Below are positions 2,034-11,843 of a stretch of 64,000 bases of DNA, piece by piece. The position numbers and the translations under genes are program-made. The notes under the pieces are model-generated. The model did not search any database. It had not been told where the DNA came from and was given only the letters and a program-made list of their open reading frames with translations. Each line of letters starts with the position of its first letter. Within the stretch, counting starts at the first letter, position 1. Source of the stretch: Corynebacterium humireducens NBRC 106098 = DSM 45392 (GTDB taxonomy: Bacteria > Actinomycetota > Actinomycetes > Mycobacteriales > Mycobacteriaceae); the NCBI RefSeq assembly GCF_000819445.1, contig NZ_CP005286.1, positions 1,860,001-1,924,000 on the forward strand, read 5' to 3'.

Positions 2034-2164
2034 TGCTTGTCGACGCCGTCTTCCCCGGCCGCAGCGTCAGCCTCAGCCTCGGCCTGCGCCTTGATCATCG
2101 CGGCGAACTTCTCCGGGTCGAAGTCCTGGAAGTACTCCTGACCCATCTTGAACTCCATGGCCAC
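2030..2164 (-). CDS. small conserved-looking peptide between thrC and the protease
   Basis: A 44-codon ORF starting at GTG 2164 (or ATG 2158), six bases after the thrC stop and overlapping the protease start by GTGA. The peptide runs VAMEFKMGQEYFQDFDPEKF and then an Ala/Glu/Asp-rich amphipathic tail. It has no signal peptide or membrane segment. The tight packing on both sides argues for real translation. I do not recognise a family and assign no function. Confidence 0.6.
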   Translation of the reverse strand: MAMEFKMGQEYFQDFDPEKFAAMIKAQAEAEADAAAGEDGVDKQ

Positions 2165-2169
2165 GACGG

Positions 2170-3612
2170 TTACACCTCGGTGGTGCGGATGGAGTCGGTG
2201 ATGAACTTCTTGACGGTCTCCGCGTCGTTCGGCAGGTCCGTCACGTGGCGCTCGGCGTCGAGGATGCCGGCGAAACGCTCCGGGGTCTCCGGCTGCACGC
2301 CGGTGGCCTCCTCGATGGTCTCGGAGAACTTCACCGGCAGGGCGGTCTCCAGGCACACGATCGGGCCGTCGATCTCGGAACGCCACTCGCGGGCGACCTT
2401 CACGCCGTCGGCGGTGTGCGGGTCGAGCATGATGCCCAGGCGCTCCCACACGTCCCTGATCGTGTCGAGGCGGTCCTGGTGGGTGGAACGACCGGAGGCG
2501 AAGCCGTACTTCTCTGCGGCGGCCGGGAACGCGGGGTCGTCGGCAAGCGAGAAACCGTCGGCGCGGACGTCGACGCCGAAGTGCTGCGCGACGCGCGCGG
2601 CGTCACGGCCCAGCAGGTCGAAGACGAAACGCTCGAAGTTGGAGGCACGGGAGATGTCCATCGACGGCGAGGACGTCTCCAGGGTCTCCTCCGCCGGGCG
2701 CGGACGGTAGTTGCCGGTGCGGAAGAACTCGTCGAGGACGTCGTTCTCGTTGGTGGCGACGATGAGACGGTCGATCGGCAGACCCATCTGACGGGCGATG
2801 TGGCCGGCGCAGATGTCACCGAAGTTGCCGGTCGGCACGGAGAAGGAGACCTTCTGGTCGTTGCTCTCGGTGATCCTCAGCCAGGAGGAGACGTAGTAGA
2901 CGATCTGCGCCATGAGGCGGGCCCAGTTGATCGAGTTGACCGCACCGATACGGTTCTCGGCCTTGAACCCGGCGTCGGCGGACACCGCCTTGACCACGTC
3001 CTGGCAGTCGTCGAAGACGCCGTCCAGGGCGATGTTGAAGATGTTGGGGTCCTGCAGGCCGAACATCTGCGCCTGCTGGAACGGGGTCATGCGACCGGCC
3101 GGGGTCAGCATGAAGACACGGATGCCCTTACGGCCGCGCATCGCGTACTCGGCGGAGGAACCCGTGTCACCCGAGGTCGCACCCAGGATGTTGAGGGTCT
3201 CCCCGCGACGGGCCAGCTCGTACTCGAAGAGCTCGCCGAGCAGCTGCATCGCCATGTCCTTGAACGCGGCGGTCGGGCCCTCGGAGAGGTGGCCGATCCA
3301 CAGGCCGTCCTCGAGCTCGGTCACGGGGACGATCTCCTCGTGCGCGAACTTCGGGGAGGTGTAGGCGCGGGCGGCGATGCCCTCGAGATCCTCCGCCGGG
3401 ATGTCGTCGACGAAGAGCTTGAGGATCTCCGCCGCCAGGGCGGCGTACCCCTTCTCCTGCAGGAGAGACCGCCACTGCGTCAGCTGCTCATCGCTGATCT
3501 GCGGGTACTCGGCGGGCAGGTAGAGGCCGCCGTCGGGGGCCAGTCCACCGAGCAGGATGTCGGTGAAGGTGGCGGGAGTACGGGAGGAGTCGCGCGTCGA
3601 AATGTAATCCAC
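2170..3612 (-). CDS. thrC: threonine synthase
   Basis: Converts O-phospho-L-homoserine to L-threonine with pyridoxal phosphate in the cytosol. The 480-aa protein closely resembles the remembered C. glutamicum ThrC sequence and length (481 aa). The PLP lysine is K118 in GPTAAFKDMAM, the phosphate-binding loop follows in LGATSGDTGSSAEY, and VPTGNFGDICAGH and ETSSPSMDISRASNFERF are also typical. I chose the GTG at 3612, which gives the family N-terminus VDYISTRDSSRTP; an in-frame ATG at 3624 would add four residues. No clear Shine-Dalgarno precedes either, so the mRNA may be leaderless. It heads an overlapping run with the small peptide, protease and exonuclease. Confidence 0.97.
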   Translation of the reverse strand: MDYISTRDSSRTPATFTDILLGGLAPDGGLYLPAEYPQISDEQLTQWRSLLQEKGYAALAAEILKLFVDDIPAEDLEGIAARAYTSPKFAHEEIVPVTELEDGLWIGHLSEGPTAAFKDMAMQLLGELFEYELARRGETLNILGATSGDTGSSAEYAMRGRKGIRVFMLTPAGRMTPFQQAQMFGLQDPNIFNIALDGVFDDCQDVVKAVSADAGFKAENRIGAVNSINWARLMAQIVYYVSSWLRITESNDQKVSFSVPTGNFGDICAGHIARQMGLPIDRLIVATNENDVLDEFFRTGNYRPRPAEETLETSSPSMDISRASNFERFVFDLLGRDAARVAQHFGVDVRADGFSLADDPAFPAAAEKYGFASGRSTHQDRLDTIRDVWERLGIMLDPHTADGVKVAREWRSEIDGPIVCLETALPVKFSETIEEATGVQPETPERFAGILDAERHVTDLPNDAETVKKFITDSIRTTEV

Positions 3613-3770
3613 GTGGACAACCATACGTGGCGGGGCTGGAAGCATGCGCAACATCCCACCCGCACGCCGGGGCGGGGATCCCGGTGAATTCCCCTTTCCC
3701 GGGAAAAGCAGTTGAGTACGCTACGGGGTACTGCGGCCGCACGCCCCTGCCGGGCGGCGTTGTCCACGCC

Positions 3771-3810
3771 GCGTCGCACAGAGTCGTACAGAGTCGCAGA
3801 GAGTCGCACA
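3771..3810. repeat. four tandem 10-bp units upstream of the secreted hydrolase
   Basis: Four consecutive 10-bp units of pattern GMGTCGYASA (gcgtcgcaca, gagtcgtaca, gagtcgcaga, gagtcgcaca). The array ends one base before the GAGGAG ribosome binding site of the gene at 3827. One unit per helical turn would suit a regulator binding site, but that is inference. Confidence 0.6.
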
Positions 3811-3826
3811 GAGGAGTGAGCGCCCC

Positions 3827-4708
3827 GTGGCCTCCCGAGGTAACACACGTACCGTAGCCACCGTCACCGCGGTCCTGCTCGTCCTCGTCGTGGCCATCGC
3901 GGTGCTGCCCCGGTTCAGTGGCGCGGACACCTGCGTGCCCACCAGCACCCGGGAGTGCGGCTGCCTCACCGAGAGCTCCGAACTCGAGGGCCTGACGTCG
4001 ACGGACAAGAGAACCCTCTCCGCCGGACAGATGACCTTCGAGGAGCACAGCTTCGAACATGACGGCACGGAGAGCACCTACCGCGTGTTCTCCCACGGCA
4101 TCAACCGGGACAAACCGGCCGGTGTCGTCGTCCGCCTGCACGGTGACGGCGCCTACGAGTACCTGTACTCCAAGCGCCACCCCTCCTGCCTGGCGGCCGT
4201 CGCCGCCAGCCACAACCTCATTCTCGTGCAGCCTCTCACCCCCGCGGAGGACCGGACGTGGTGGACGGACCTGGACACCAACACCGACTGGCTGGAGGCG
4301 TTCTACGACGAGGAGATCAGCACCATGGAGGGTGTCGACCCGGACAGGGTGTGGTGGATGGGGTACTCCGGCGGGGCGGAGATGATCAGCTACGGGCTGC
4401 TCCCCTCGGCGGGCCGGGTCATCACCGCCGGGGCGATCCTGGTGGGCGGCGGCGGGGCGCCGCGGAGGACGGGCCACAGCGTGCCGGAGGAACGCGTCGC
4501 CGACCTGCCCCTGTACTGGGTCACCGGGAGCCGCGACACCGGGGAGGACCCCCGGGAGACCTTCGACGCCCTGAGCGCGGCGTCCGAGGGCGCCGACGCC
4601 TACCGGTCGCAGGGTTTCGAGGCCGTCTCCACCGATTTCTGGAGGGACGACAACCACATCTCCATCGACCAGGTGGAGATCCTCCACTCGATCCTCCGGG
4701 ACAACTGA
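3827..4708 (+). CDS. secreted or anchored alpha/beta-hydrolase, esterase-like
   Basis: A 293-aa protein with an N-terminal hydrophobic segment (about residues 10-28) followed by a Cys-containing region (C36, C44, C46). The rest looks like an alpha/beta-hydrolase of the polyhydroxybutyrate-depolymerase/feruloyl-esterase type: an HGDGAYEY oxyanion-type loop at about 105, a nucleophile elbow GYSGGAE with S181, and a late DDNHISI histidine. The start is GTG 3827 with GAGGAG at 3811-3816. The substrate is not predictable. It stands between thrC (divergent) and the lipoprotein racemase homologue, and could belong to the cell-envelope block that follows. Confidence 0.7.
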   Translation: MASRGNTRTVATVTAVLLVLVVAIAVLPRFSGADTCVPTSTRECGCLTESSELEGLTSTDKRTLSAGQMTFEEHSFEHDGTESTYRVFSHGINRDKPAGVVVRLHGDGAYEYLYSKRHPSCLAAVAASHNLILVQPLTPAEDRTWWTDLDTNTDWLEAFYDEEISTMEGVDPDRVWWMGYSGGAEMISYGLLPSAGRVITAGAILVGGGGAPRRTGHSVPEERVADLPLYWVTGSRDTGEDPRETFDALSAASEGADAYRSQGFEAVSTDFWRDDNHISIDQVEILHSILRDN

Positions 4709-4842: not shown

Positions 4843-6300
4843 ATGAACTATCAACTCACAGGGCAGATGCACCGCAACCGGAAGACGCGGATGGCTGTCC
4901 CTGCGATCGGCACCACCGTCCTCCTGCTCGCCGGATGTGCCGGAACGGCCGACGTCGCAGAGCAGGGGGACCCCTCCCGTGACGCCACCGGCACGGTCTC
5001 CCTCGTCCCGTCCCGGGGCGCACTCAACGGTGGCAACACCGTCCTGGTGGACACCGGGGACGACACCACCGCCCCGATCACCGCCACCTTCGGCGACTCC
5101 CCGGAGGTTGAGTGCCAGTTCGACCAGAGGTCCGCCCGTCACGCCTGCACCGCCCCCGGTCGGCACACCCCCGGAACCGTGGACGTGACCGTCAATGTCG
5201 AGGGCACCCCACTGCCGCAACAGCTGCCCTACACCTATACGACGGATGGTTCCCAGGCATCCCCGGCCATGGTCATCAACACCGAGACGGTACGCCAACG
5301 GGCCCAGGAGGTCCGGGCGATCTACCCGTACGGGGTCAAACTCGGCGCCGTCCTGAAGAACGGTGAACCAGTGGACGTGTTCGGCAGAGTGATCAACGAC
5401 GCCGTCAGTCCGGACTACTTCTTCGTCCCGACCCTGGATGACGCCATCACCCTCCGAGAGTCCGGGATCCAGTCGTCCATCGCCGTCATGTACGTGTCCC
5501 GCGTCGAGGAGATTCCGCTCTTCCTGCACTACGACATCGAGGCCTCGGCCATCGACTCCGCATGGGCGGAGGAGGCGAACCGGATCGCGGCGGCAAGCGG
5601 CGGCGACCCCCTGCGGGTCCACCTCTGGATCGACACCGGCATGGGCCGGGAGGGTGTTGTCCCCGATGACGCCTTCACCGTGGCCCGCACCATCGAGGAG
5701 TCGCCGCATCTGGAGCTGGTGGGCATCGCCACCCACTTCAACGCCATCAAGGCGGACGACTCGGCGGCGATCGCGGCCAACGACCTCACCCGTCACACCG
5801 TTCTCCAGAAGAACCGTTTCGAGGGTGCGGTCAACCAGATCCGGGAGGCGGGAATGGGACAGAACGCTCTCATCCATGCCGGTGCCACCGATGTGCTCGT
5901 GCACGGAATCGAGGAACTGAACTACGACCTCATGCGCATTGGCGGGGCGTTCTTCGGAGCCTCCGCCCCCGAGGAGCGCATCTACTCGTGGACCACGACG
6001 CTCACCCAGGTCAAGGAGCTTCCGGCGGGCTGGTGCCTCGACTACGACTGCACGACCCCCACTGCCTCTCCGATCAGGGTGGGACTGGTCAACCATGTCC
6101 CGAGAAGGGAGAACGAGGTGGAGTTCACCGTCCGGGGCGTCAAGGTTCCGGCACTCCTCAACCACGGCACCGTGGTGACCCTCGACCTGTCGGGAGTGCC
6201 CGATGCCGTGGCCGGCGACGAGGTCACCCTCGACTTCGACCCGAGAGCCTTCTACAACCCTGACGGCACCGCCCCCCTGCCGGTCACCACCACCGGATAG
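4843..6300 (+). CDS. lipoprotein with TIG-like domain fused to alanine-racemase-like domain
   Basis: A 485-aa predicted lipoprotein: lipobox LLAGC with C32, then an Ig-like IPT/TIG-type segment (about 50-137), then a fold-type III PLP domain resembling alanine racemase. Racemase landmarks are K172 in GAVLKNGEP (PLP lysine), DTGMGR at 264-269, THFNAIKADD, and R365 in YDLMRIGGAFFG. The C-terminal beta domain (VRGVKVPALLNHGTVVTLDL) aligns with the usual VRGxxxPIxGRVxMD region. Y401 may match the catalytic tyrosine of the usual SYG motif, while the GYADG motif has become VNHVP. Activity outside the membrane is therefore plausible but not certain. It lies 227 bp before the poly-amino-acid synthetase gene. 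AAGGGGGG precedes the ATG. Confidence 0.8.
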   Translation: MNYQLTGQMHRNRKTRMAVPAIGTTVLLLAGCAGTADVAEQGDPSRDATGTVSLVPSRGALNGGNTVLVDTGDDTTAPITATFGDSPEVECQFDQRSARHACTAPGRHTPGTVDVTVNVEGTPLPQQLPYTYTTDGSQASPAMVINTETVRQRAQEVRAIYPYGVKLGAVLKNGEPVDVFGRVINDAVSPDYFFVPTLDDAITLRESGIQSSIAVMYVSRVEEIPLFLHYDIEASAIDSAWAEEANRIAAASGGDPLRVHLWIDTGMGREGVVPDDAFTVARTIEESPHLELVGIATHFNAIKADDSAAIAANDLTRHTVLQKNRFEGAVNQIREAGMGQNALIHAGATDVLVHGIEELNYDLMRIGGAFFGASAPEERIYSWTTTLTQVKELPAGWCLDYDCTTPTASPIRVGLVNHVPRRENEVEFTVRGVKVPALLNHGTVVTLDLSGVPDAVAGDEVTLDFDPRAFYNPDGTAPLPVTTTG

Positions 6301-6527
6301 CGCTCGCTGCGGCATGTAACGCGACCCCGACACCACCGATCTATGAAAATGACACGCCTGGAGATCCGGATCTCCCCGAAGGTGGGGACGTGAATTGTTT
6401 CCGATTCCAATTGTCTGGACTTATGCGTAAAATACATGACATAGAAAGCGAGTGTCCTGAGCTCAACGACTGACCACGAGGCCCGCCGCTGATTCGTCTC
6501 CGGGACACCAGGAACACATCTGCGAAA

Positions 6528-9500
6528 GTGGGCCATGTCTCATTCAATCCCGCCCCCCCCGCATCCCCCGGTCCCCGGGGCCCAGGCAGCGACGACCACC
6601 CGGATCTGGCGATCTACGGCGTCATGCCGGCCTCTCCCCCACGGACCCTCGTCGACATTCTCCGGGCCACGATGGCCGCCCACCCCGAGGTCGTCGCCAT
6701 CGAAGCCGCAGGTAAGGCCATCACCTACGGTGAGCTCGAGCACGTCCTCGACGCCGAAGCAGGCCGCCTGGCGGACATCGGCGTCACCCGGGGCTCCCGG
6801 GTGGGAATCCGGGTCCCCTCCGGAACCACCGACCTCTACGTCGCCATCCTCGCCACGATCTGGGCCGGCGCCGCCTATGTGCCCGTCGACTGGAACGACC
6901 CTGACTCCCGGGCCACCACCGTCTGGGAGGAGGCCGCCGTCGATGCCGTCTACGGACGTGACCTGTCCCTCACCGTCATGCGTGAGGATCCCCCCACCCG
7001 GGTGACGCCTGCGTCACCGACCCTCGACGACGACGCCTGGATCATCTTCACCTCCGGCACCACCGGCAAGCCGAAGGGTGTGGCCATCAAGCACCGGTCC
7101 GCCGGCGCGTGGGTGGACGCGGAATCCCGCATGTTCCTTCTCGACGCCCCGCTGGGCCCCCGTGACCGCGTCATGGCCGGCCTGTCCGTCGCCTTCGACG
7201 CCTCCTGTGAGGAGATGTGGCTCGCCTGGCGCTTCGGGGCGACCCTGGTCGCCGCCGACCGCGAGACCGTGCGGGCGGGCGACATTCTCGGTGACTGGAT
7301 CATCGAGCAGGACATCACCGTCGTCTCCACCGTCCCGACCCTGGCCGCCTTCTGGCCCTCCGAGGCCTTCGACAAGGTCCGCCTGCTGATCTTCGGCGGC
7401 GAGGCGTGCCCCCTGGAACTGGTGGAGAGGCTCGTCGGCGACGGCCGCGAGATCTGGAACACGTACGGCCCCACCGAGGCCACAGTGATCGTCAGTGGAC
7501 AGATGATGACCCCTGAACCGCCGGTGCGGATCGGCCGCCCCATCCCCGGCTGGGAGCTGGTCGTCGTCGGCGAGGACGAGAAACCCGTCCGGTGGGGAGA
7601 GACCGGCGAGCTCGTCGTCGGCGGTGTCGGACTGGGCCGCTACCTCGACAAGGAGAAGGACGACGAGGTCTACGCCCCCCTCCCCGCTCTCGGCTGGGAG
7701 CGTGCCTACCGCACCGGCGATCTGGTGCAGGCGGAACAGGACGGCCTCATCTTCCGGGGCCGTGCCGACGACCAGATCAAGTTCGCCGGCCGCCGCCTCG
7801 AGCTCGGCGAGCTGGACAACCACCTGACCGCGCTCCCCGACGTCCGCGTCGGAGCCACCGCACTCCACAAGACACCCGCGGGTTCCGACGTGCTGGTCGG
7901 CTACCTGGTGCCCGAACCCGGAATGACGATCGATCTCGCAGGTGCCCGGACCCAGTTGGCCACGACGTTGCCCGGCGGCATCGTCCCCACGCTCTGTGTG
8001 CTCGAGGAGATGCCCACCAAGACGTCCGGCAAGGTCGACCGCAAGGCACTGCCGTGGCCTCTGCCCCGCGCGAACGACGACACCCCCGACCTGCCCGCGG
8101 AGCTGACCTGGCTCGCGGAAAGGTGGATGGACCAGCTTGGCCCCGTCCCCCTCGCACCGGACAGTGACTTCTTCGACATGGGCGGCAGTTCAGTCGCCAT
8201 CGCCAAGCTCGCCACCGCCCTGCGGCAGGACTACCCGGGCGCCAACATCGCGGAGCTCTACCTCCACCGCACCCTGGAGTCGATGTCCGGGTACCTGGAC
8301 TCCCTGGAATCGGAGACGTCCGTCCGCCCCATGCCTGGACCACTGCCCTGGTACACCGGTCTGGTGCAGGCGGCGACCGTGCTCGCGCTCTACGTCATCA
8401 ACGGCCTGCGCTACATCGTCGGCGTGATGCTGGTTATCTGGGTGCTCAGCGCCGGCTTCCACGCCAGCTGGGTCAGAACCCCCGCCCTGCTCACGCTGGC
8501 ACCACTCATCGTGGCGTGGCTCCTGTTCTTCTCCAACCGCGGGAAGTTCCTCGTGGCGGCCGCCGGAGCCCGTGTCCTCACCTGGAGGCTCCGTCCGGGC
8601 AGCTACCGGCGCGGCGGCATGACGCATCTGCGGGTCTGGGCTGCCGAACGGCTGCTGATCCACCAGCGTCTGGACGCGGTCCTGGGCACCCCGCAGATCC
8701 GGACCCTGTACCGGCTCCTGGGCAACCACGTGGGGAAGCGGGCCGAACTCCACAGCTTCCCACCCGTGACAGGACTGCTCACGATCGGCGACGACGTCTC
8801 CATCGAACCGGAGGTCGACCTCAACGGCCACTGGATCGACGGCGACCGATTCATGGTGGGCACGATCGACATCGAGGACCACGTACGGGTGGGTACCCGA
8901 ACGGTCATCTCCCCGGACACGACGATCAGTGAAGGCGCCGAGATCCTTCCCGGCTCCCACGTCTCCGGTGCCGTCGGAAGCTGGACCCTCTGGGGAGGTT
9001 CCCCCCTGCAGCCTCTCGGCGAGGCCGGACAGAACTGGCCGCTGGAGGACGCCCACACAGATCCGGGCGTGCACCGTCTCGGTGGTCTCACCAACCATCT
9101 TCTCCATTCGGCGGGCCTCTTCTGGATCACCGTGCTCCCCCTGCTGGCCCTCCTCCCGGGAATCGGCGTGCTGTTCACGCAGATCCGGGGAATCGAGCGC
9201 TACCCCGCTCTCTTCCCGGTCCTGTACGCGTGGGTGCCGCTGACCATCCTGTTGACCATCGGCACCTGGCTCACGCTGGTCATCACCACCGTGCGCATCC
9301 TGTCGCTGTTCATCAGACCGGGCTACTACCCCGCCCAGAGTGCCACCGGCTGGGCGTTGTGGTTCACACAGACGCTCATGGAACGCACACTGACGTCCAC
9401 CTACTTCATGTACGCCTCCTGGGTGACCCCGATCTTCATGCGGCTACTGGGAGCGCAGGTGGGTAAGGGCACGGAGATCTCCACCCTGGTCTCCATCCCG

Positions 9501-10529
9501 CACCTGACCCGGATCGACGACAACAGCTTCATCGCCGACCACGCGCTCCTCTCTGCACCCCGCTACCGGGACGGCTGGGTGCACGTGGGCACCACCACCG
9601 TCGGTGAAGGCAGCTTCGTCGGCAACTCGGGCATCGTCGGCCCTGACCGCGATCTGCCCCCGGACTCCCTGGTGGCCGTCCTCTCCTCCGCGCCCTACCG
9701 TCCGGAGCAGGGCACCTCCTGGCTCGGCCGACGCCCCGTGGAGATCCCGCGGAAGAAGGTCGAGTCCGACGCGTCGAGCACCTTCGCGCCGCTGCGCAGA
9801 CTGAAGATCGGCCGTGCGCTGGTCGAGTCGCTGCGGCTGGTTCCCGCGATCCTCACCGCCTGGCTCGACCTCGCGGTCGTCTTCATCGGCACCGTCATCT
9901 TCATGCACTGGTTCTACCTGGGGCAGGCCGCCAGGGGACTGTTCATCCTCATCCTCATCTCCGGGCCCCTCGTCCTGGCCGCCGGAATCATCGCCTCGTT
10001 GATTCCTGTGATCATCAAATGGCTGGTGGTCGGTGTGTTCCGGGCGGGTGACCGTACCCTGTTCAGCACCTTCGTGTGGCGCAGTGAACTCGCGGACAAC
10101 TTCGTCGAGCCCCTCGCAATCCCCAGCCTGGTCCGCATGAGCCTCGGATCCCCGATGTTCAACATGTGGGCGCGCCTGATGGGCACCCGCATCGGCCGGG
10201 ACGTCTGGTGTGAGACCTGGTGGCTCCCAGAGTTCGACCTCATCACCCTGGAGGACCGGTGCAGCGTCAACCGAGGCACCGTGCTCCAGACCCACCTCTT
10301 CCACGACCGGGTGATGTCCATCGAGCCCGTGGTCCTCCGGCGTGGAGCGAGCCTGGGCCCCAACAGCTTCCTCCTGCCGGGAGCGAGCATCGGCGAGCGG
10401 TCCACCATCGGGCCCGGCTCACTGGTCCTCCGGCAGGATTCCATCCCCTCCGACTCCCTGTGGGAGGGAAACCCGGTGCAACGTGTCACCGCACCGGCCG
10501 CACAGATCAAGGAGGTCAGGGTGTCATGA
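6528..10529 (+). CDS. Pls/PosA-family nonribosomal poly-amino-acid synthetase
   Basis: A 1333-aa membrane NRPS-like enzyme of the epsilon-poly-lysine synthetase type, which joins one amino acid into a homopolymer. Order: adenylation domain (about 30-510; FTSGTTGKPKGV, NTYGPTEATV, YRTGDLV, KTSGKVDRKALP), carrier domain with phosphopantetheine serine S555 in DMGGSS, then about six membrane segments around three soluble left-handed beta-helix-like domains (about 745-830, 980-1055, 1215-1320). There is no condensation or thioesterase domain, as expected for this family. The start is uncertain: GTG 6528 is the longest; the domain begins near residue 40. It overlaps the acyltransferase gene by ATGA. 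Upstream 6301-6527 is A+T-richer and should hold the promoter. Confidence 0.88.
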   Translation: MGHVSFNPAPPASPGPRGPGSDDHPDLAIYGVMPASPPRTLVDILRATMAAHPEVVAIEAAGKAITYGELEHVLDAEAGRLADIGVTRGSRVGIRVPSGTTDLYVAILATIWAGAAYVPVDWNDPDSRATTVWEEAAVDAVYGRDLSLTVMREDPPTRVTPASPTLDDDAWIIFTSGTTGKPKGVAIKHRSAGAWVDAESRMFLLDAPLGPRDRVMAGLSVAFDASCEEMWLAWRFGATLVAADRETVRAGDILGDWIIEQDITVVSTVPTLAAFWPSEAFDKVRLLIFGGEACPLELVERLVGDGREIWNTYGPTEATVIVSGQMMTPEPPVRIGRPIPGWELVVVGEDEKPVRWGETGELVVGGVGLGRYLDKEKDDEVYAPLPALGWERAYRTGDLVQAEQDGLIFRGRADDQIKFAGRRLELGELDNHLTALPDVRVGATALHKTPAGSDVLVGYLVPEPGMTIDLAGARTQLATTLPGGIVPTLCVLEEMPTKTSGKVDRKALPWPLPRANDDTPDLPAELTWLAERWMDQLGPVPLAPDSDFFDMGGSSVAIAKLATALRQDYPGANIAELYLHRTLESMSGYLDSLESETSVRPMPGPLPWYTGLVQAATVLALYVINGLRYIVGVMLVIWVLSAGFHASWVRTPALLTLAPLIVAWLLFFSNRGKFLVAAAGARVLTWRLRPGSYRRGGMTHLRVWAAERLLIHQRLDAVLGTPQIRTLYRLLGNHVGKRAELHSFPPVTGLLTIGDDVSIEPEVDLNGHWIDGDRFMVGTIDIEDHVRVGTRTVISPDTTISEGAEILPGSHVSGAVGSWTLWGGSPLQPLGEAGQNWPLEDAHTDPGVHRLGGLTNHLLHSAGLFWITVLPLLALLPGIGVLFTQIRGIERYPALFPVLYAWVPLTILLTIGTWLTLVITTVRILSLFIRPGYYPAQSATGWALWFTQTLMERTLTSTYFMYASWVTPIFMRLLGAQVGKGTEISTLVSIPHLTRIDDNSFIADHALLSAPRYRDGWVHVGTTTVGEGSFVGNSGIVGPDRDLPPDSLVAVLSSAPYRPEQGTSWLGRRPVEIPRKKVESDASSTFAPLRRLKIGRALVESLRLVPAILTAWLDLAVVFIGTVIFMHWFYLGQAARGLFILILISGPLVLAAGIIASLIPVIIKWLVVGVFRAGDRTLFSTFVWRSELADNFVEPLAIPSLVRMSLGSPMFNMWARLMGTRIGRDVWCETWWLPEFDLITLEDRCSVNRGTVLQTHLFHDRVMSIEPVVLRRGASLGPNSFLLPGASIGERSTIGPGSLVLRQDSIPSDSLWEGNPVQRVTAPAAQIKEVRVS

Positions 10530-11843
10530 CCCTGGACTACCCCACTCCCCGCACCACCTTCGAGGGGGATCTACCCCCCGGAGTCCGTCCCCACCCGGGC
10601 CCCCGTCCCGAACGCAGCGTGTGGATCGGCGGTGCGCAGACCGACCCGGACGTCGGAAAGAAGCCCCGCATCACCGGTGTCGACGTCGCCCGCGGACTGG
10701 CCCTCATCGGCATGATCGCGACACATGTCCTGCCCTCCTACCACCAGGTCACCGGAGAGCCGACCCTGCAGTGGTCACTCTTCTCCGGCAACGCATCTGC
10801 ACTGTTCGCCCTGCTCGCAGGCTTCTCCCTGACGTTGATGACGGGCGGGACCAACCCGCACACCGGCCGCCGCTGGGTACGCAGCGCCGTCGCGCTCCTG
10901 GTCCGCGCTCTCCTGCTGTTCCTCGTTTTCGGACTCGCGGTGAACCTGCTCGACATGCGGGTATACAACATCCTCCCCTACTACGCCCTGCTGTTCCTGC
11001 TGGCGATCCCGTTCACCCTGCTCCGCCCGCTGCAGCTCCTGGTGGTGTCGATCCTGTTCGGCCTGCTCGGACCGGTGGCGATCCACCTGATCAACAGGAC
11101 CGCCAGCTTCAACGTCGTCGCCAACCCCACACCCACGGATCTGCTCAATGATCCGTGGAGCGTGGTCCTCAGCCTCTTCTCGGGCGGAGCCTTCCCGGTG
11201 TTCACCTGGATGACCTTCATCTGCCTCGGCCTCATGCTGGGGAGGATGGGGGTGGACCGGCTGTCCGTCCAGATACAGATCCTGGCGTCCGGAGCCGTGC
11301 TCATGGTGGCCTCCGGTGGCCTGTCGAACATTCTCCTCAACTCGGGCGGCGGTTGGCAGCGGATCATCGACGCCAACCCGGGCATGACATCGACCGACGC
11401 TTTCGAGATCGCCATCTACGGCACCACTGAAAGCAGCCTCCAGCTCGTCCCCACGACGTGGTGGTGGCTGGCGGTCGACGGCCCGCACACGAACACCCCG
11501 CTCTCTGTCGGGTACAGCGCCGGTGTCGCCCTGCTCATCCTCGGCGGCGCACTCCTGGTCAGCCGGGTCTGGTCCGAAGCCCTCACCCCCCCTCATGGCG
11601 GCGGGCAGCATGACCCTGACGATGTACACCGCCCACCTGGTCTTCATGGCCTACATCGACACCACCCGGCTGCCCATCCTGTGGTTCGTCCTCCAGATCG
11701 GTGTCGCCCTGGTGTTCGCCACGGTGTGGCGGATGAGTGTGGGACGGGGACCCTTCGAGGGGGTTGTCGCGCGGATCTCGAAGTGGACCGCCGGAGCACT
11801 GGTCCATGAATCGGCAGCCGGCAGGCACCATCTCGGGTCCTGA
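10526..11843 (+). pseudogene. DUF1624/DUF418-like membrane acyltransferase, frameshifted
   Basis: About 440 aa when the frame is repaired. The first frame (ATG 10526) has the family signature VDVARGLALIGMIATHV near residue 50 and about eight membrane segments. After a C7 run at 11586-11592 the reading continues in another frame with the family C-terminus (LMAAGSMTLTMYTAHLVF, then WRMSVGRGPFEGVV) to the TGA at 11843. Six Cs instead of seven would restore one ORF. Such proteins resemble heparan-alpha-glucosaminide acetyltransferase/YeiB proteins and may acylate exported glycans or polymers. The ATGA overlap with the synthetase suggests a joint role. Assembly error, phase variation or real decay cannot be separated here. 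Confidence 0.75.

Follow-up and report, generated by a model that had tools for sequence, protein, structure and literature searches.

A Pls/PosA-type synthetase cluster of Corynebacterium humireducens with a membrane acyltransferase and a putative exported racemase-like lipoprotein

The window analysed here is a stretch of 64,000 nucleotides from Corynebacterium humireducens NBRC 106098 = DSM 45392 (positions 1,860,001-1,924,000 of a single-contig genome of 2,681,312 bases), and it carries on its + strand, in this order, genes for a secreted hydrolase, a racemase-like lipoprotein, a Pls/PosA synthetase of the kind that we call type B, and a membrane acyltransferase. The assignment of the locus as a Pls-family homopolymer cluster plus a membrane acyltransferase is well supported. 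Our preferred reading, held tentatively and rated somewhat below an even chance, is that the type-B cluster makes a cationic isopeptide, most probably a lysine polymer of the antimicrobial type, and that the lipoprotein is an extracytoplasmic, pyridoxal 5'-phosphate (PLP)-dependent racemase accessory, not a supplier of D-monomers. The features of the locus are as follows (positions within the window):

3827..4708, + strand: secreted alpha/beta-hydrolase, 293 residues, with an N-terminal hydrophobic segment and a GYSGG nucleophile motif
4843..6300, + strand: racemase-like lipoprotein, 485 residues, with lipobox C32, a TIG-like region (54-137) and an alanine-racemase fold (134-485)
5356..5358, + strand: codon of Lys172, the aligned counterpart of PLP lysine Lys39 in alanine racemase
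6043..6045, + strand: codon of Tyr401, the aligned counterpart of catalytic Tyr265' in alanine racemase
6528..10529, + strand: type-B Pls/PosA synthetase, 1333 residues, with adenylation domain (~46-508), carrier (528-590) and membrane polymerisation domain (613-1317)
6553..6560, + strand: C8 run near the Pls start; GTG 6528 and ATG 6535 lie upstream, in differing frames across the run
10526..11590, + strand: membrane acyltransferase resembling heparan-alpha-glucosaminide N-acetyltransferase (HGSNAT), N-terminal ~355 residues (PF07786); its ATG and the stop codon of Pls overlap in ATGA
11586..11592, + strand: C7 run where the acyltransferase frame breaks
11589..11843, + strand: C-terminal part of the acyltransferase in the other frame, with 72% identity over 82 residues to the C-terminus of the relative in genome G139

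The synthetase had been described in an earlier note, made from the sequence alone, as a 1333-residue protein with adenylation, carrier and membrane parts, and the profile searches bear this out. The Pls/PosA terminal domain (TIGR02353, 549.1 bits, cut-off 423.1) is preceded by an adenylation domain (PF00501, 191.5 bits) and a carrier domain (PF00550, 34.3 bits), and the hydropathy plot reveals six peaks arranged as three pairs (619-669, 864-919 and 1108-1156). The same note had also seen three beta-helix-like domains; of the three C domains, only the final one shows hexapeptide similarity (PF00132, residues 1268-1300), and the threefold arrangement is taken from the published model of PosA, in which three left-handed beta-helices lie over six helices (PMC10522769). 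The adenylation-carrier-membrane architecture, the six transmembrane segments, a near-identical pocket code and a coryneform host are shared with the epsilon-poly-L-lysine synthetases Pls of Streptomyces albulus and C. variabile, as described in PMC8117764, and membership in TIGR02353 is shared with the delta-poly-L-ornithine synthetase PosA (PMC10522769).

The check on the adenylation pocket that had been proposed for this enzyme gave a result close to a lysine code. The synthetase matches the A-domain structure of the S. albulus poly-lysine synthase (7WEW) with 577 bits, and the ten pocket residues, located through gramicidin-synthetase numbering, read DAESIGTVIK in the window enzyme and DAESIGTVVK in the S. 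albulus enzyme (taken from the 7WEW alignment), so that the sole difference is V to I at the ninth position and the code is not strictly identical to that for epsilon-poly-L-lysine. It differs more from that of PosA (DMEHNGTVSK; PMC10522769). Asp and Glu are present at positions 1 and 3, as the rule for Pls/PosA enzymes prescribes, and according to Patel and Gulick position 2 reflects how long the side chain is, being Ala in lysine enzymes and Phe in those for short diamino acids (both PMC10522769). Codes were read for 86 sequences, among which certain genomes count repeatedly: type A has DAESIGTVVK in 43 of 44 (one is cut), and the 39 type-B codes comprise 31 DAESIGTVIK, five ending in TIIK, two ending in SVIK and one cut. 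Since the pocket is near the poly-lysine code and has Ala at position 2, lysine is the most likely substrate of type B, as far as its sequence goes; the fixed Ile might favour a slightly shorter substrate.

Type B is a clade apart from the commoner coryneform type A, as judged from a maximum-likelihood tree of 32 type-B and three type-A rows in which the two types split with full support. Pls matches were found in 113 of 151 Corynebacterium genomes at 1e-100, and type B (at least 49% identity over long stretches, a fragment in G129 excluded) in 24 of the 151. Beyond what the earlier note had recorded, the window genome holds both types, its second Pls being of type A and 46% identical to the type-B enzyme of the window, and the secreted hydrolase at 3827-4708 is likewise an addition. 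C. halotolerans (G305) has a third, partial match (G305:C1:2219399-2220589), a lone adenylation-like stretch in a 480-residue frame with 49% identity to the type-B A domain.

The neighbourhood of type B was compared in 37 loci (24 from Corynebacterium, 12 from Kocuria and one from Citricoccus; L170 has just 331 bases upstream, and at least nine more type-B genes lie outside the set). In all 37 the acyltransferase is found downstream of Pls on the same strand, up to ~2 kb off where Pls is broken. The window protein matches PF07786 with 52.9 bits (cut-off 22), and it shares with HGSNAT this catalytic domain profile and several hydrophobic segments; its frame, unlike that of HGSNAT, is broken. 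Enzymes of the HGSNAT type acetylate an amine across the membrane using cytoplasmic acetyl-CoA, which suggests by analogy that the type-B acyltransferase may cap alpha-amines. The hydrolase lies no more than 2 kb from Pls in 21 loci of the 37 (three times on the opposite strand, twice downstream) and shows weak similarity to extracellular polyhydroxyalkanoate depolymerases (22.6 bits, under the 150-bit cut-off). The idea that lipoprotein, synthetase and acyltransferase form a trio therefore survives as a constant Pls-acyltransferase pair, often joined by a hydrolase, in which the racemase is not a constant member. According to Jiang et al. (PMC8117764), the operon partner of Pls in C. variabile is a peptidase; because type B pairs with an acyltransferase, its cluster looks like a separate kind. 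Type B also forms a clade separate from the S. albulus and C. variabile enzymes, with a code that ends in I-K and not V-K; the C. variabile enzyme itself lies outside the alignment. Another acetyltransferase beside Pls was seen on an Aureimonas plasmid (L211), where the genes immediately after Pls encode a GNAT N-acetyltransferase and a phosphopantetheinyl transferase.

The lipoprotein proved to be what the earlier note had called it, a TIG-like plus alanine-racemase-like lipoprotein. An N-terminal hydrophobic stretch ends in the lipobox LLAG-C32 (read by eye), residues 54-137 are TIG-like and match Plexin-A1 (E-value 7e-5), and the remainder contains an Ala_racemase_N domain (E-value 2e-33). 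The scores stay below the cut-offs of the alr equivalog TIGR00492 (89.8 vs 168 bits) and of NF009879/PRK13340 (54.7 vs 434 bits), which we take to be the model covering Bsr. The structure model shows a confident alanine-racemase fold with barrel and beta domain, the fold matches being alanine racemases, and all Pfam and NCBIfam matches are to alanine racemase families and not to PddB or DapF. Among 62 family rows, 35-80% identical to the window protein, the position of the PLP lysine (Lys172) is K in 60 and E in two, and that of the catalytic tyrosine (Tyr401) is Y in all 62; the equivalents of His166, Arg136 and Arg219 are kept as well. The equivalents of Tyr43, Tyr284 and Tyr354 are lost (a gap, Leu415 and Thr483, respectively) in a MAFFT alignment whose reference is six corynebacterial Alr sequences with near-duplicates among them. 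The check that had been suggested for the PLP site thus found the catalytic pair kept in the alignment and the fold kept in the model, but these three aligned tyrosine positions lost. The family has in addition an invariant Trp at the position of the carbamylated lysine and an invariant cysteine pair. Compared with alanine racemase and BsrV, the lipoprotein shares the fold, the PLP lysine and the catalytic tyrosine, and differs in its TIG-like domain and lipid anchor, in its scores under the alr and PRK13340 cut-offs, in the loss of phosphate and entryway residues, and in the Trp and the cysteine pair; by its sequence it is an exported protein related to, but distinct from, alanine racemase.

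The racemase family, counted by profile A2 at 1e-60, occurs in three of 242 Corynebacterium genomes, namely the window genome, G139 and C. halotolerans (G305), and it adjoins Pls in the first two. Eight of 395 genomes of the wider family have it: six Kocuria (of 27 Kocuria genomes) and two Citricoccus-like ones, G152 (Citricoccus zhacaiensis) and G861. In G152, G154 and G155 the gene stands at or near a contig end, with its upstream side beyond the contig. A search of the Rokubacteria phylum found it in one of 95 genomes and a search of the order Lysobacterales in one of 398 (with at most three candidates scored in the genomes listed), in both cases the seed genome. Fourteen low-scoring Corynebacterium matches (24-32% identity) were rejected as members of the same family, as profile A2 finds only the three genomes; six of the fourteen loci are standard alanine racemases by their KANAYGHG-like motif. 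Pls is present in 11 of the 12 carriers tested (of 13 in all, G861 being outside the test), and type B in all ten tested actinobacterial carriers (in G154 the gene is only partial, at the end of its contig). The hypergeometric probability of co-presence, with kinship ignored, is 0.0036 in Corynebacterium, a value that mixes the base rate of 151 genomes with a carrier from outside that sample, and 0.063 in Kocuria. In the type-B tree the carriers are grouped in three places (Citricoccus, Kocuria and Corynebacterium); the label count on this tree set them against type-A rows only and therefore says nothing on gains.

A third type of Pls (32-35% identity to the window Pls) was found in all six racemase-bearing Kocuria and in none of the 21 others. 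We do not count this match as evidence, because a single clade of the type-B tree holds five of the six carriers (the sixth is unplaced). Its code, read in L133, L134 and L135, is DFEYLGTVTK, and the Phe at position 2 resembles that of diaminopropionate and diaminobutyrate enzymes.

Outside Actinobacteria, the racemase lipoprotein adjoins a Pls-family gene in one 5.8 kb contig of a Rokubacteria metagenome-assembled genome (MAG; L082, 3-5837), which encodes in order an S-adenosylmethionine-decarboxylase-like protein, SbnB (441 bits against a cut-off of 327), a protein that joins a carrier to the Pls terminal domain (2105-4594; 700 bits) and lacks an adenylation domain and, one base downstream, the racemase lipoprotein. 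SbnB is an enzyme of diaminopropionate biosynthesis, which points to a monomer that differs from the Corynebacterium one. The strongest indication that the racemase may recognise a shared feature of the polymers, an alpha-carbon with a free amine, and not one monomer, is that the same exported protein occurs beside synthetases whose monomers probably differ. Together with the co-presence in the ten actinobacterial carriers, this independent adjacency argues for a racemase-Pls link. Carrier-Pls proteins of ~830 residues without an adenylation domain seem to be a large family, with 4640 relatives at 1e-80 within the searched length range, of which the best 120 have ~774-850 residues and one is named Burkholderiales. 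A racemase (P0065) and a carrier-Pls (P0202) are both listed with a JGI contig of 26,897 bases, an observation from the best 120 of the 4640 matches that is suggestive only.

We propose that Pls would join lysine via its side-chain amine and pass the chain across the membrane, that the acyltransferase would cap chain amines on the outer side with cytoplasmic acyl-CoA, much as HGSNAT acts on glucosamine, and that the secreted hydrolase would trim or free the product. The lipoprotein would be a lineage-specific accessory anchored on the outer side, where it would invert the alpha-carbons of polymer residues or of lysine set free from the polymer. A supply of D-monomers to Pls is improbable, since adenylation is expected in the cytoplasm and the lipoprotein outside; the suggestion that D-residues are made before polymerisation is accordingly unlikely. 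The more specific version, in which the lipoprotein is a polymer epimerase that partly converts the L-polymer to D outside the cell, we regard as unlikely in itself. A Schiff base of a PLP enzyme could form on residues within the finished chain, because each residue of a Pls-type isopeptide keeps a free alpha-amine, and an enzyme with an opened active site would then shield the polymer from L-specific hydrolases or tune its activity. Recognition of the backbone would fit the placement of the racemase beside a synthetase with a lysine-like code in Corynebacterium and within an SbnB cluster in Rokubacteria. No PLP enzyme is known to epimerise a polymer in this way, and none was found in open-licence papers either; nor did the mainly open-licence literature searched contain a report of an alanine-racemase lipoprotein with Pls, and the words "racemase" and "epimerase" do not occur in the main text of the PosA paper (PMC10522769).

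Several observations weigh against this proposal. The racemase is rare in Corynebacterium and adjoins Pls in just two of the 37 type-B loci, which rules it out as a constant member of the cluster; in C. halotolerans the two genes are 384 kb apart, and the racemase is also found away from Pls in Citricoccus and Kocuria. In the Lysobacterales MAG the racemase occurs without any Pls match, and type B is present in 12 of the 21 Kocuria without racemase. The co-conservation that had been set in advance as the check is therefore seen as co-presence in all ten actinobacterial carriers, but not as adjacency or as wide occurrence, and the description of the racemase as "dedicated" to Pls, consistent with that co-presence and with the Rokubacteria operon, is weakly supported. 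Since the family has lost the GYADG entryway and the residues that hold the PLP phosphate (Tyr43, Tyr354), and two of 62 rows are without the PLP lysine, a loss of racemase activity in the family is possible. The acyltransferase frame is broken near 11,590 in the window genome. Finally, expression cannot be assumed, because Jiang et al. report that C. variabile, which has a different Pls, gave no product in culture (PMC8117764).

A serious competitor, possible but on balance doubtful, is a BsrV-like broad-spectrum racemase that acts on free extracellular amino acids and provides D-lysine or a comparable product used in signalling or in remodelling the wall; the adjacency to Pls would then be incidental or only ecological. 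It is opposed by the score far under PRK13340, by the invariant Trp, the cysteine pair and the lost entryway that set the lipoprotein apart, and by the tight Rokubacteria operon with SbnB and Pls. A supply of D-lysine to Pls for a poly-D or mixed polymer has a precedent in the PddA/PddB system, where a racemase gene likewise stands beside a Pls-family synthetase and the translationally coupled PddB makes D-2,4-diaminobutyrate for a poly-D-2,4-diaminobutyrate synthetase (PMC8225329). PddB, however, is a cofactor-independent DapF relative that acts before polymerisation on free diaminobutyrate, and its D-product is adenylated directly (also PMC8225329), whereas the window protein is a lipoprotein of alanine-racemase fold that, with its lipobox and invariant cysteine pair, should be outside, so that D-lysine would need re-import. 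Moreover, the nine racemase-bearing type-B enzymes with a readable code all have DAESIGTVIK, like most racemase-negative ones, and we find such a supply very improbable.

An ex-racemase whose barrel now serves to bind or chaperone the cationic polymer or fragments of it would explain the lost equivalents of Tyr43, Tyr284, Tyr354 and of the carbamylated lysine, the invariant Trp, the TIG-like domain and the two rows without PLP lysine, but the near-complete retention of the catalytic pair at 35-80% identity makes it improbable. It is rather unlikely, though less so, that the cluster is a decaying remnant in the window genome, without function and interrupted at C runs in the acyltransferase and possibly also at the start of Pls. 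The frame breaks at C7, C8 lies at the start of Pls, and type-B Pls is in pieces or has stops in G012, G099, G102 and G150; on the other hand, the window Pls is open for 1333 residues from its GTG, and the C runs may vary in length or be sequencing errors.

These runs bear on the acyltransferase as first described, for its overlap with Pls stands and its extent does not: there is no single frame to 11843. The frame from ATG 10526 stops at 11809, and the conserved C-terminus (TMYTAHL...) is in another frame (11523-11843), while G139, the closest relative, has the whole acyltransferase in one frame. C8 and C7 are the only C/G runs of at least seven in the 64 kb window, both at frame conflicts in the Pls-acyltransferase pair, compared with one such run in 400 kb sampled evenly across the rest of the genome; by hand arithmetic made post hoc, the chance of two in 5.3 kb is ~1e-4. 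The remaining 36 type-B loci have no long run within the cluster, and across the full set of 37 the clusters contain fewer such runs per length (2 in 203 kb) than the sequence around them (10 in 557 kb, including one A8), which weakens a general role. Phase variation in this strain, relaxed selection or sequencing error are possible explanations. A promoter scan found no promoter-like sites, and a single terminator-like site was detected, below the shuffled-sequence mean of 2.2.

The purpose of epsilon-poly-lysine-type polymers in bacteria is an open question, and many coryneforms have Pls genes. The existence of a distinct Pls clade that is paired with a membrane acyltransferase of its own suggests capped, less cationic products that assays for free poly-lysine would miss, and a link between these polymers and an exported racemase would, if true, be a new route to setting stereochemistry after synthesis.

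A plasmid search with two members of the racemase family gave no match, and in five plasmid contexts of other Pls genes (of 40 record matches) no racemase was among the listed features, the PLSDB tables being incomplete. On mycobacterial plasmids (L212, Mycobacterium intracellulare) a Pls homologue with 47.5% identity stands beside a gene of the PLP-dependent cysteine synthase family.

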